NCBI GenBank assembly: GCA_903903975.1
Contig: CAIVAS010000089.1
Location: forward strand, 1-38,201
DNA: 38,201 nucleotides
From: an uncultured Burkholderiales bacterium
GTDB taxonomy: Bacteria > Pseudomonadota > Gammaproteobacteria > Burkholderiales > Burkholderiaceae_E
Direction of reading: 5' to 3'
A model generated the notes under the pieces. The model saw only the letters and a program-made list of their open reading frames with translations, made no database searches and was not told the DNA's origin. Each line of letters opens with the position of its first letter. Position 1 is the stretch's first letter. Positions 5,837 through 37,274 of this stretch are shown in pieces. The position numbers were made by a program, and so were the translations under genes.

Positions 5837-5922
5837 GAGGCTTGGCGCGCGGGCCCGGTCAGCTCACCGGATCGCGAGATGTAGACGACTGCGCTGGCCG
5901 CGTCTGCCATCGACAGCCACAC

Positions 5923-6006
5923 GTCACCCGTCACCCGTCACCCGTCACCCTTCACCAGTCGCCCGTCTCCTGTCTCCCGTCGCGTGCCACCGGTCACCTG
6001 TCACCC
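5923..6006. repeat. 7-base tandem array, 12 units, between convergent genes and over the phnX stop
   Basis: Four perfect GTCACCC units (5923-5950) are followed by eight diverged units, all exactly 7 bases long: TTCACCA, GTCGCCC, GTCTCCT, GTCTCCC, GTCGCGT, GCCACCG, GTCACCT, GTCACCC. The array lies between the convergent monooxygenase and phnX genes. The phnX stop codon (5994-5996, minus strand) is inside unit 11, so the last phnX codons are repeat-derived. Confidence 0.93.
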
Positions 6007-6812
6007 GCTGCCACCGGCCGCTCGCCTGCGGCCAGTCGACGCTCGATGTCATCAATGACCGCTGGCAGATCCGCCACGGTGTCAATCAGATAGTGAGCGC
6101 CCGCTCTCGTCAAAACCTTTCCAGCTCGATCCACCGCAGCCGCCTTGGCCTCGTCGCTCAGCGCCAGCCACTCCGGATGCGACAAGCCCACTTCGTTGCC
6201 CGAGGCGGTCACACCCACCGTCCAGGTGCCGGCGGCAATGCCCTCGGCGATCCCCGGCCAGGTGTCGTCGACCTTGACCACCGCGCTTGGCGGATGCACG
6301 CCCAGATCGGCAAAAGTGCGATACATCATCAGCGGCCCGGGGCGTCCCTCGGCCAGATCGCCGGCGCACACCAGGTTGTCGGGCGAGTAGCCGGCCGCCG
6401 CCGCAAGCGGCAGAACGCGGGCCATGATCTCGCGGGTATAGCCGGTGGTCGAGCCGATCCGCAGACCCCGCTCACGCAGCATCGCCACCACCTCGGCGGC
6501 ACCCGGCACCAGGTCGGCATGATCGGTCACCGCCGCCACATTCATCGGCACGAAGACCTCATAAACCCGATCGATGTCGGCCTCGCCGGGCGCCTGGCCA
6601 TGACGCTGCGTCCAGGCAGCGGCCACCTCGGGCAGCACCATCAGGGCCGCGATATGGTCGCGCTTGGGCAGGCCCATCGGGCCACGCGCCTGCGCAATCG
6701 TGAGCGGAATCTCGAACTGCTCGAAGGCGCGCACGAAGGCGCCCATCGGCGCGAGCGACCCGAAATCGATCATCGTGCCGGCCCAGTCAAATACCGCCGC
6801 CTTGAGTGTCAT
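5994..6812 (-). CDS. phnX: phosphonoacetaldehyde hydrolase (phosphonatase)
   Basis: The 272-residue protein is a HAD-superfamily phosphonatase, which cleaves the C-P bond of phosphonoacetaldehyde to acetaldehyde and phosphate. It opens with the HAD motif AVFDWAGT, nucleophile Asp9, and PMGLPKRDHI carries Lys50, the family's Schiff-base lysine. The GSTTGYT motif and a late VKVDDTWPG block complete the HAD signature. ATG 6812 is chosen: it matches the usual length (about 270) and has GGTGAG upstream. A TTG at 6839 would add nine residues with no homology. It lies 44 bases behind the FAD oxidoreductase and the two probably form an operon. The C-terminal codons and the TGA stop fall in a 7-base repeat array. 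The transaminase phnW is absent nearby. Confidence 0.93.
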   Translation of the reverse strand: MTLKAAVFDWAGTMIDFGSLAPMGAFVRAFEQFEIPLTIAQARGPMGLPKRDHIAALMVLPEVAAAWTQRHGQAPGEADIDRVYEVFVPMNVAAVTDHADLVPGAAEVVAMLRERGLRIGSTTGYTREIMARVLPLAAAAGYSPDNLVCAGDLAEGRPGPLMMYRTFADLGVHPPSAVVKVDDTWPGIAEGIAAGTWTVGVTASGNEVGLSHPEWLALSDEAKAAAVDRAGKVLTRAGAHYLIDTVADLPAVIDDIERRLAAGERPVAAGDR

Positions 6813-31744: not shown

Positions 31745-31768
31745 GCTGACTCGCTGACTCGCTGACTC
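31745..31768. repeat. 8-base tandem array between convergent genes
   Basis: Three perfect GCTGACTC units, followed by a degraded GCTAGCTG, lie between the 3' ends of topB (plus) and DUF3717 (minus), just after the topB terminator. Confidence 0.9.
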
Positions 31769-31796
31769 GCTAGCTGGTCAGCAGTCGACCGCAGGC

Positions 31797-34064: not shown

Positions 34065-34136
34065 CCCGCTTGAGCAGGGCTCGCAGGCTTGTACGGTAGA
34101 GTGGCGGCGCCGCGCAAGCACACCAGAGCCACCGCC

Positions 34137-35273
34137 ATGTCGGATCAGCCTTCCCAATCGGTCCAGCACGACCCGACCGCCGCCGTCACGCCCGGCAAAG
34201 CCGCATCGCTTCGCCAGGACTTCGACCTGACGCGATCGGTGCTGGCGATCGTCGCGCTGACTGCACTGATCGGCGGCAGCCTCTGGGTCCTGAGCCCCTT
34301 CATCCCGGCGCTGATCTGGGCGGTCACGATCGTGGTGACCACCTGGCCGCTGATGACACGGGTCGAAGCGATGCTGTGGGGCCGCCGCGGCCTGGCGGTC
34401 ACCGTCATGACGCTCGCCCTGCTGCTGCTGTTTTTCGTGCCGCTCACCCTGGCGATCATGACCGTGCTCGACAACGTCGACACCATCAGCGGCTGGATCA
34501 AGCTCGCCTCCAATCTCAAGGGCACCGAGCCGCCGTCCTGGCTGGTGTCATTGCCGGTGGTCGGCCCTCGGGCCGCCAGTTTCTGGGCCGACCTGGTCGA
34601 GCATGGCGCAGAACCTCTGCTGGGCAAGTTCATGCCCTATGTCGGGACCTTTGCCGGACGCGTCCTCAAGGAAGCCGGTCTGATCGGTTCGATCGGCGTG
34701 CAGTTTCTGCTGAGCGTGCTGCTGTGCGCGGTGCTTTACGCCTATGGCGAGGACGGCGCGCGCGCCGTGCTGCGCTTTGCCCGTCGGCTTGCCGGCGACC
34801 AGGGCGTACGCATGACCCGGCTTGCGGCGGCCTCGGTGCGCGGCGTCGCGCTCGGCGTGGTGGTGACCGCAGTCGTCCAATCGGTGCTGGCCGGGCTCGG
34901 TCTGGCACTGGTCGGTGTGCCGGCGGTGGCGCTGCTCACAGCGCTGATGTTCCTGCTGGCGCTCGCGCAGATCGGCGTGATACCGGTGCTGCTGCCGGCC
35001 GTCATCTGGCTCTACTGGAGCGGCCAGATTGGCTGGGCCATCGGGCTGCTGATCTGGACGGTGGTGGTCTCGACCTTGGACAACTTCATGCGCCCCTGGC
35101 TGATCAAGAAAGGAGCCGATCTGCCCTTCCTGCTGATCTTCGTCGGAGTGGTCGGCGGGCTGATCGCGTTCGGGCTGATCGGCATCTTCGTCGGGCCGGT
35201 GGTGCTCGCGGTCACTTACACCCTCTTCGATGCCTGGACCGCAGATCACCCTGCGCCGCCGCTCGAGCACTGA
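34137..35273 (+). CDS. AI-2E family permease (YdiK-like)
   Basis: The 378-residue protein has the two-part plan of this family: N-terminal helices (LSPFIPALIWAVTIVVTTWP near 55-75), a central hydrophilic part (about 115-185) and C-terminal helices with VVQSVLAGLGLALVGVPAVA and LDNFMRPWLIKKGADLP. The family was named for autoinducer-2 export but many members transport other things or have unknown cargo. ATG 34137 is used; a TTG at 34089 is weaker. The stop codon at 35271-35273 falls inside a long 7-base repeat array. Confidence 0.9.
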   Translation: MSDQPSQSVQHDPTAAVTPGKAASLRQDFDLTRSVLAIVALTALIGGSLWVLSPFIPALIWAVTIVVTTWPLMTRVEAMLWGRRGLAVTVMTLALLLLFFVPLTLAIMTVLDNVDTISGWIKLASNLKGTEPPSWLVSLPVVGPRAASFWADLVEHGAEPLLGKFMPYVGTFAGRVLKEAGLIGSIGVQFLLSVLLCAVLYAYGEDGARAVLRFARRLAGDQGVRMTRLAAASVRGVALGVVVTAVVQSVLAGLGLALVGVPAVALLTALMFLLALAQIGVIPVLLPAVIWLYWSGQIGWAIGLLIWTVVVSTLDNFMRPWLIKKGADLPFLLIFVGVVGGLIAFGLIGIFVGPVVLAVTYTLFDAWTADHPAPPLEH

Positions 35274-35397
35274 GCACTGAGCACTAAGCGCTAAGCGCTA
35301 TTCGCTATTCGCTGTTCGCTGTTCGCTGTTCGCTGTTCGCTGTTCGCTGTTCGCTGGACGCTGTGCGCTGGACGCTGTGCGCTGGACGCAAAGCACT
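35265..35397. repeat. 7-base tandem array, 19 units, over the permease stop codon
   Basis: Nineteen consecutive 7-base units fill 133 bases with no slip: 3x GAGCACT, 2x AAGCGCT, 2x ATTCGCT, 6x GTTCGCT, then GGACGCT and GTGCGCT alternating twice, GGACGCA and AAGCACT. Position 4 (C) is invariant and the unit end is nearly always CT, while bases 1-3 change in blocks. The array starts within the last codons of the permease, includes its TGA, and ends 77 bases before the stop of the convergent helicase gene. Confidence 0.95.
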
Positions 35398-35474
35398 GAC
35401 GGCCGGGTGCCGGGTACCGACGGTTGATGGCTGACCGGTGAACGCCAGGAGTCGAGCCCGACAAGCCGCAGTCG

Positions 35475-37274
35475 CTAAGCCTCCGAGACGCTCGCGAGTG
35501 CCGCCCGAATCGCCTGCGCCGCGCGCGTCGAGGCCACGATCGACAGTTTCATCGTCGCCCTGGTGGCGCCCACGAAGAGTTTTCTGACACTTCGCTCGTC
35601 CATCGATTCGAAGTCGACTTCGCTGAACACCACCGCCGGGGCAGCCTGCCCCTTGAAGCGATAGACCGACTCGACCAGCAGTTCGCCGCCGGTATAGACC
35701 GGCTGCGCCAGCAGATCGTAGCGGCCGGTGAAGCGACGCACCGGATGCGGCCCGATGGCATCGAGCGACAGCAGCGCTGACTGCTCGCGGCCGCGAAAGC
35801 TCACCACCGCGATGTCGTGACGCCGAAAGCCCATGCCCAGGCAACTGCGAATCGCCTCCTTGGTCGCCGCCAGCATCTGCGCGGTGTCGGCATAGTCGAA
35901 GATCTCGAGTTCGGCGCCGGCCAGCGGCCCAGCTGCCTCGATGCGCACGTCAGTCGGCAGGATTGCCCGCAGAAAACGCACCACCTCGCGCGGGCTGCGA
36001 TAGTTGGCGCGGGCGTACAGGGTGACCCATCCCGGCAGTCGGCTTCGCTCGCGGGCGTAAAGCGACTGCATCGGGTCCTCGAGCCAGATCAGTCGCGCGT
36101 CGTCGCTGGCATGGCGCAGCACCTGATCGCGCCACGCCGGCGAAAAATCCTGACCTTCATCGACCACCACGGTATCGAAGCGCCAGCGATCGTCGATCGG
36201 CACGCCAGCCGCTGCCTTCTCGAGCCGCTCGAACCCGTCGGGAGCAGCAATGTCGACCGTCTTCCCGGCATCGCGAACCAGTCGCTGACACAGCGTGTGG
36301 AAGGTGCACACCTCGCCGCCTGCTGGCGCCACCTCGGCGAAATGATCGGCCAGTGGCCGGTTGTAGCAGACATAGAGCGGGCGCAGACCCCGATCGATTG
36401 CGGCGCGAAACTCGGCCAGCGCCAGCTGCGTCTTGCCGGAGCCCGCCGTGCCTTCGACATGCAGCCGGTAGGGCGAGAAGTCGAGCTGACGGGCCCAGTG
36501 CGCCAGCCCGCCCGAGACCCGCGTGACCATAGCCTGCGCGCGGCCGACCAGCGCACTGACGTCGGATTCGAGTTCGATCACGTCCCGAAAGAAGCGGTCG
36601 ACCTGCTGCCAGGCAGAGGCGGGCCGCAACGCGCCGCCTAATCCGCCCGTTGTGCCCGTTGTGCCCGATGAGCCCGTTACACCCGATGTGCCCGGCACAG
36701 CGCCGCCCGACCCGGCGCCCGCCGCTCGGCCGCCGTCGACCTCAACCGACAGAATCTCGCGAATCACCGCCAGCAGCTTGTCGCGCCGGCTTGCATCGAC
36801 GATGCGCTCAGCCGCGACCCCTGCGGTCTCGAGACGCCTGACGCTGAAATCGGGGCAATAGAGCAAGGCATCGACCTTCACCGCCTCGCAACCCGGTCGC
36901 CGCGCGAGCTTGCCACGCAGCCCGGCCGCGGTTCGTGCCATCTGGACCGACACATTGCGCAGTCGACCGCGTTCGCGCCGCATCAGTCCGTCGCCCGACT
37001 CCTCCAGAAATCCGGTCTTCTGCTCAATCAGGAGCAGGTCACCCATCCGGTTGACCACGACGAAGTCGATGTCGTCGATCACCGCGAATCCGCGTTCGAT
37101 CGTCGTCCAGTGCACCGCGTGATAGACCGTGAAGTCGTCGGAAAGACCCGCCGCCATCAGGGCGAGCGTCTCGTGGTGGCGCTGCGCGCTGGGCGGCAGC
37201 GCTCCGCCGGCGGCTCCCGGAGAGGCATCACTGTTGGCTAATTCGCGCCAGCCGTCTGGAATGATCCGGGCCAT
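35475..37274 (-). CDS. NERD nuclease-related domain / SF1 helicase fusion
   Basis: The 599-residue protein starts with a NERD-like domain (about 33-180): DDIDFVVVN (67-75) and IEQK with Glu84/Lys86 fit the D-ExK nuclease core. A Gly/Thr/Ser-rich linker (185-215) is coded by a 9-base repeat. A UvrD-type SF1 helicase follows: Walker A EGTAGSGKT (274-282), Walker B VVDEGQDF, the NYRSP motif and a late VGATRA. NERD-helicases are found in many bacteria, with roles suggested in DNA repair or defence; none is proven here. No partner gene is adjacent. Start ATG 37274. It converges with the permease at the 7-base array. Confidence 0.88.
   Translation of the reverse strand: MARIIPDGWRELANSDASPGAAGGALPPSAQRHHETLALMAAGLSDDFTVYHAVHWTTIERGFAVIDDIDFVVVNRMGDLLLIEQKTGFLEESGDGLMRRERGRLRNVSVQMARTAAGLRGKLARRPGCEAVKVDALLYCPDFSVRRLETAGVAAERIVDASRRDKLLAVIREILSVEVDGGRAAGAGSGGAVPGTSGVTGSSGTTGTTGGLGGALRPASAWQQVDRFFRDVIELESDVSALVGRAQAMVTRVSGGLAHWARQLDFSPYRLHVEGTAGSGKTQLALAEFRAAIDRGLRPLYVCYNRPLADHFAEVAPAGGEVCTFHTLCQRLVRDAGKTVDIAAPDGFERLEKAAAGVPIDDRWRFDTVVVDEGQDFSPAWRDQVLRHASDDARLIWLEDPMQSLYARERSRLPGWVTLYARANYRSPREVVRFLRAILPTDVRIEAAGPLAGAELEIFDYADTAQMLAATKEAIRSCLGMGFRRHDIAVVSFRGREQSALLSLDAIGPHPVRRFTGRYDLLAQPVYTGGELLVESVYRFKGQAAPAVVFSEVDFESMDERSVRKLFVGATRATMKLSIVASTRAAQAIRAALASVSEA
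36646..36699 (-). repeat. in-frame 9-base repeat in the helicase linker
   Basis: Six consecutive 9-base units begin with CCCG (CCCGTTGTG twice, then CCCGATGAG, CCCGTTACA, CCCGATGTG, CCCGGCACA). Read on the minus strand they encode Gly-Thr/Ser/Val triplets between the NERD and helicase domains. Confidence 0.92.

Follow-up and report, generated by a model that had tools for sequence, protein, structure and literature searches.

What is a tandem array of 7-base units, a period that is not a multiple of three, doing across the stop codon of a permease gene, and how did it come to occupy the DNA beyond that gene? The array lies in contig C89, which is 38,201 bases long and as a whole is called the window; it belongs to G000, a draft genome of 3.95 Mb and 270 contigs. 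We analyzed the array itself, the same gap in related genomes, the other arrays in the window, the genome and the class, and the readings under which the array would have a function.

Structure of the array

The features at the locus are as follows.

34089-35273, + strand: AI-2E-family transporter (permease) gene (Pfam PF01594, E 2.3e-35; open reading frame); its last two codons, GAG CAC, and its stop, TGA, span unit 1 of the array plus two bases of unit 2
35265-35397, + strand: fresh portion of the array, made of 19 heptamers with 0 indels (sequence, TRF and shuffles)
35296-35384, + strand: core expanded in the window lineage among the five compared, made of the ATTCGCT/GTTCGCT block and the GGACGCT/GTGCGCT 14-base repeat (TRF score 122; G001, G003 and G005 have a single NTTCGC[TG] unit apiece)
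35398-35460, + strand: decayed heptads that keep the register and end in AGGAGTC GAGCCCG (boundary placed by eye, common to G003 and, in changed form, to G005 and G001)
35475-37274, - strand: convergent UvrD-like helicase gene (Pfam PF13538 and PF13245), with the stop codon TAG at 35475-35477

The original prediction described an exact 7-base period over 133 bases in which the C at position 4 is fixed, a second-level repeat of 14 bases, and a start within the last codons of the permease that takes in its TGA. All of this was confirmed when the sequence was recounted. Positions 35265-35397 consist of 19 contiguous heptads (133 bases) without indels. The order of the units is GAGCACT (three copies), AAGCGCT (two), ATTCGCT (two) and GTTCGCT (six), followed by GGACGCT, GTGCGCT, GGACGCT, GTGCGCT, GGACGCA and AAGCACT. 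C is found at position 4 in 19/19 units and at position 6 likewise in 19/19, while position 5 is G in 15 units and A in four, and position 7 is T in 18 and A in one. The 14-base repeat is GGACGCT-GTGCGCT, and GAG CAC TGA occupies 35265-35273.

As a description of the whole tract, the predicted interval of 35265-35397 was too short. The 19 units are there, and decayed heptads in an unchanged register extend the array to about 35460. This gives 28 units, 26 of which precede AGGAGTC GAGCCCG. The 7-base periodicity of 35265-35397, and also that of 35265-35460, was matched by 0/2000 first-order Markov shuffles. Taken alone, 35398-35460 showed a modest periodicity, since its lag 7 was equalled by 9/2000 shuffles and any period of 4-16 by 111/2000. 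This right part is convincing as a heptad tract because the orthologs show the same register. In the lag scores of the gap in the window, lag 14 (0.67) was slightly higher than lag 7 (0.64).

Since the helicase gene is oriented opposite to the permease gene, the array sits between two stop codons. Heptads occupy most of the gap (35274-35474), and only the first nine bases of the array are outside it; its position is thus non-coding. Within the helicase gene, a 9-base array at 36644-36694 encodes an in-frame linker rich in Gly, Ser and Thr. This linker varies in length and sequence in four relatives, and is a frame-keeping counterpart of the 7-base array.

The same gap in related genomes

The permease was searched for in 61 genomes, and 36 of them had a match. 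The gap between the permease and helicase genes is retained in four close genomes (G003, G001, G005 and G002), and the best lag in the gap was 7 in all four. The G003 permease shows 94% nucleotide identity to that of the window, and the trees of the permease and helicase genes each place G003 beside the window with support 1.0. The record of G001, a MAG from the genus of the window, is titled Bordetella parapertussis. Its permease is 91% identical to that of the window, and the title seems to be a mislabelling. The more distant G007 (L015) has an unrelated unit in its permease-helicase gap, where the best period is 13. By eye, G009 has a short gap with no evident array, and in G006, G011, G010, G004 and G008 a different gene directly follows the permease.

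The number of heptads before the right-hand boundary is 26 in the window, 14 in G005, 11 in G003 and 9 in G001, so that the length differences are whole heptads; the block limits and this boundary were picked by eye after the sequences had been viewed. In G002, the gap holds only about three heptads, and the boundary is lost. Thus, the comparison of copy number that had been proposed with the original prediction found it not fixed among related species. The boundary has the form AGGxGTC GAGCCCG, and in G001 it reads GGGCGTC GCGCCCA. From the boundary to the helicase anchor, there are 33 bases in G000, 33 in G003, 29 in G001 and 32 in G005. Because these lengths differ by 1 and 4 bases, the whole-heptad spacing stops at the boundary.

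The order of the units was also compared. G005 reads GAGCACT AAGCACT ATTCGCT GCTCGCG GGTCGCA, with one copy of each, and in the window related units form blocks that follow this order. G003 reads GATCACT GAGCACT GTTCGCT, with one NTTCGCT unit, and later GATTGCC in three copies. In addition, G005 carries GATGGCT in four copies. Corresponding units thus follow one another in the orthologs as they do in the window, but in fewer copies, which supports stepwise duplication of successive variants. Repeated local duplication from successive variants had been suggested in the original prediction, and the unit order of the orthologs, together with the strong differences in copy number between species, bears it out. 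Across these genomes, the period remains 7 although the units differ in sequence. The sequences thus show an inherited heptad seed, of which each lineage amplified a different part (the blocks in the window, GATTGCC in G003 and GATGGCT in G005).

These comparisons suggest that the tract is very probably a heptanucleotide simple-sequence repeat, neutral or nearly so, which fills the space separating the stop codons of the convergent genes. Four other explanations were weighed against this one.

Tests for a function of the gap

No promoter- or terminator-like match was detected in 35150-35650, although this test is weak (shuffle means 0.0 and 0.3). No unusual RNA fold was observed at the array: on either strand, shuffled sequences fold more strongly on average (z +1.48 and +0.91). 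No Rfam match was found anywhere in the window.

A functional 3′-end element, in which stop-bearing heptads would buffer convergent transcription or, since 7 = 1 mod 3, give stops in all three frames directly after the gene, is very unlikely. All three frames are stopped at most 17 bases from the permease stop in the window and G002 (2/5 genomes), whereas only frame-0 stops are present in the first 30 bases in G001, G003 and G005 (3/5). In the genus, (TGANNNN)x5 occurs at eight places in 4/12 genomes against 0/12 for the backwards control, and three of the eight places (L213, L215 and L217) cover the stop of a called gene. However, the TGA in the search pattern itself favours stops, and two of the eight places (L216 and L219) cover a called start codon instead. 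Furthermore, across the class, (TGANNNN)x5 was found in 34/185 genomes, frequently many times per genome, against 32/185 for a control that was counted by hand and consists partly of the same arrays (units such as TGACTTC or TGAGTAA hold AGT on one strand); this is no clear excess. The lack of a terminator match, in a search that is weak, and of an unusual fold also argues against such an element. Stop-codon heptads were thus rejected as a system, because the excess over the control in the genus is not accompanied by a clear excess across the class.

The tracts at L216 and L219 are in G002 and G000, ahead of genes that are 92% identical over 550 bases. They enter the called start codon, with ATGA inside the unit, and therefore lie at the opposite end of the gene from the permease array.

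In raw counts, 35/117 noncoding arrays lie over stop codons (28.6 expected by random placement) and 9/117 over start codons (14.7 expected). Gene calls for these overlaps, for the noncoding arrays and for the gap types below were made with a home-made hexamer caller.

Arrays in convergent gaps

Convergent gaps might also be active hot spots, where colliding transcription would drive tandem duplication of any short unit. We regard this as just as improbable as a 3′-end element. In the pooled stretches of G000, G002 and G005, arrays were detected in 28/141 convergent gaps and 76/871 other gaps (length-matched odds ratio 3.0, z 4.5), and the values without the window were 25/137 and 73/847 (odds ratio 2.7). 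Moreover, 3/3 convergent gaps called in the window contain an array, although one of the genes concerned is a weak call. However, the pool contains the sample that prompted the idea. In a fresh sample set beforehand, arrays were found in 10/84 convergent gaps and 50/561 others (odds ratio 1.49, z 1.09), which did not confirm it. The convergent-gap excess, strong in the first sample, thus failed to replicate in fresh stretches, and an excess in this direction would also be expected if constraint between two stops were relaxed. These counts exclude two gaps that contain N, as well as all gaps shorter than 10 bases.

Another heptamer array occupies a convergent gap of the window.

5918-6007, - strand: a further array of 7-base units, reading GACGGGT on the - strand and covering the TGA of the - strand gene at 5994-5996 (TRF score 89; 0/2000 shuffles)

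This array covers the stop of a gene for a HAD-like hydrolase. In G003, the orthologous gap was not periodic. The gene preceding the array has a match in 12/12 genus genomes, and by eye another gene lies beyond it in G001, G002, G005 and G009. The unit GACGGGT is also present in contig 304 of G007. A perfect 8-base array, GCTGACTC x3.4, lies at 31745-31771 in yet another convergent gap, where the - strand gene is a weak call.

Heptad arrays in the genome and the class

The absence of other 7-base arrays from the genome would have weakened the original prediction. Further ones were found in the G000 genome, namely that at 5918-6007 and those in C23 and C163. As for the units of the permease array, NNNCGCT x4 had 11 matches in the G000 genome, all within that array. 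Since 11/11 matches are inside one array, this is not a dispersed element, and an origin from such an element was rejected.

Periods were scanned in 603,769, 500,000 and 488,689 bases from G000, G002 and G005, respectively, a sample to which C23 and C163 do not belong. With a 77-base scan window, period 7 was detected at three loci in these 1.59 Mb, and two of them are orthologs of the permease gap. In G000, 274 period-4 clusters were set aside, since the G000 stretches hold 34,867 N and runs of N match themselves. Stretches of 100 kb from G006 and from G018 had no period-7 cluster, and the gaps of the fresh sample had no period-7 array. TRF reported 117 noncoding arrays, of which 77 have periods of 10-15; period 7 is given in four rows, which count as three arrays because the permease array was split in two. 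Clear period-7 tracts are uncommon in the sample, a point against the simple-repeat explanation, and the locus is thus not accounted for by a strong general tendency towards 7-base units. A genus-wide habit is unsupported by the sample, yet more heptad arrays are present in G000, G001, G002 and G007.

In the class, TTCGCTN-type arrays of four units were found in 4/369 genomes (G000 included), against 2/369 for a backwards control counted by hand. Together with the counts for (TGANNNN)x5, this indicates that a heptamer array is an ordinary sight in this class. An RCYG-type pattern, GCTGNNN x4, was matched in four of 12 genomes, and its backwards control was matched in five, as counted by eye.

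Assembly

Still less probable is an assembly artefact, that is, false expansion or collapse of the array. The genome is indeed a draft in many contigs. However, 133 bases of mixed units would correspond to about one ordinary short read, the window has no N, and the relatives carry related units in the same order.

The C-terminus of the permease

According to the original prediction, unit slippage could change the C-terminus of the permease. Duplications and deletions of whole units were simulated with the window's own consecutive units. The C-terminus was unchanged in 190/190 duplications and in 160/190 deletions. The remaining 30 deletions all lose at least three units and start in unit 1 or 2; none of them is of one or two units. 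In 4/4 close orthologs, the permease ends in PPLEH or PPLDH despite very different unit numbers. C-terminal switching by slippage was thus rejected on the basis of the simulation and the orthologs, and this part of the prediction was not supported. A phase-variable (contingency) locus, in which slippage would switch the C-terminus, is accordingly the least probable explanation of all: the stop codon does lie in the array and those 30 deletions do alter the C-terminus, but no duplication and no loss of one or two units does so, the LEH or LDH end is kept, and a change of frame or promoter with unit number was not found, the promoter part being a weak test.

History and mechanism

As a nearly neutral simple-sequence repeat, the tract may have grown by whole-unit slippage or unequal exchange in replication. 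Length differences of whole heptads between the genomes are what slippage by entire units would leave in a gap under little constraint. A slip of seven bases would pair best with the adjacent unit, because bases 1, 5, 6 and 7 (roughly G...RCY) are mostly common to the units: among 54 distinct units, G1 is found in 46, R5 in 48, C6 in 45 and Y7 in 44. Since neighbouring units mostly share these bases, the register would perpetuate itself. Arrays that shift the frame would be purged by selection, and the tract would therefore halt at the stop codon of the gene. The stop codon may be tolerated inside the start of the array: unit 1 can hold it because a duplication of this unit recreates identical last codons and the stop.

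It is possible, though we consider it rather doubtful, that the period outlives the sequence. Different species would then inherit one register while its units are replaced, each slip copying the register of its neighbours, possibly with the help of convergent transcription. In that case, the age of the period would be separable from the age of the sequence and could be traced in sister species. The locus could also be used for typing. The array is probably immaterial to the permease.

Comparison with known systems

Cyanobacterial heptamer repeats are named STRR. They share tandem units of 7 bases with the window array, which differs in not being a dispersed family. The same difference separates it from the TAACTGA and GGGAATC repeats described below, as every NNNCGCT x4 match lies in one array.

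In the direct repeats of Beggiatoaceae, as portrayed in the relevant passages of PMC4679880, the unit TAACTGA is fixed and its 169 sets are mostly upstream of start codons. In contrast, the unit of the window array varies, and the array lies between stops. The heptamers GGGAATC (Xanthomonas) and GGGGA(T/C)T (Nostoc) described in PMC4692102 likewise lie, in some cases, between convergent genes, and they vary in length and sequence at the same gene pairs among related organisms. Unlike these, the 19 units of the window hold no run of three G or C; neither GGG nor CCC, and thus no quadruplex-capable G-run of the GGGAATC type, was found in 35265-35397.

The setting of the array was unfamiliar to the original prediction, but it is already in print: sections of PMC4679880 describe sets of heptamers that overlap stop codons, and sections of PMC4692102 describe heptamers between convergent genes whose length and sequence vary between related organisms. 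The latter source also mentions three heptanucleotides of Calothrix. Most arrays in B. pseudomallei are intergenic, with unit lengths of 6-9 bases (PMC1853098). A literature search joining tandem repeats, stop codon, convergent genes and slippage in bacterial genomes found no paper.

Heptamers are the commonest class of 5-11 nt repeats in most prokaryote genomes, and four Burkholderia species are among the ten genomes richest in such repeats (Mrazek 2007, as cited in passages of PMC4679880). Polymerase slippage has been proposed as their cause (Mrazek 2007, in the same passages); to judge from these, why many bacterial repeats have a 7-base unit seems unsettled.

The closest counterpart is the heptanucleotide class of long simple sequence repeats (LSSR, 5-11 nt; Mrazek 2007, as outlined in PMC4679880), which is alike in its tandem 7-base units and, as far as that outline goes, shows no essential difference. 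The array agrees with this class in its beyond-chance tandem units, its non-coding position and its varying copy number among relatives. It is thus an ordinary simple-sequence repeat of a known kind, and its sole distinguishing feature is a register-keeping history across species, which at this one locus can be read in five genomes.
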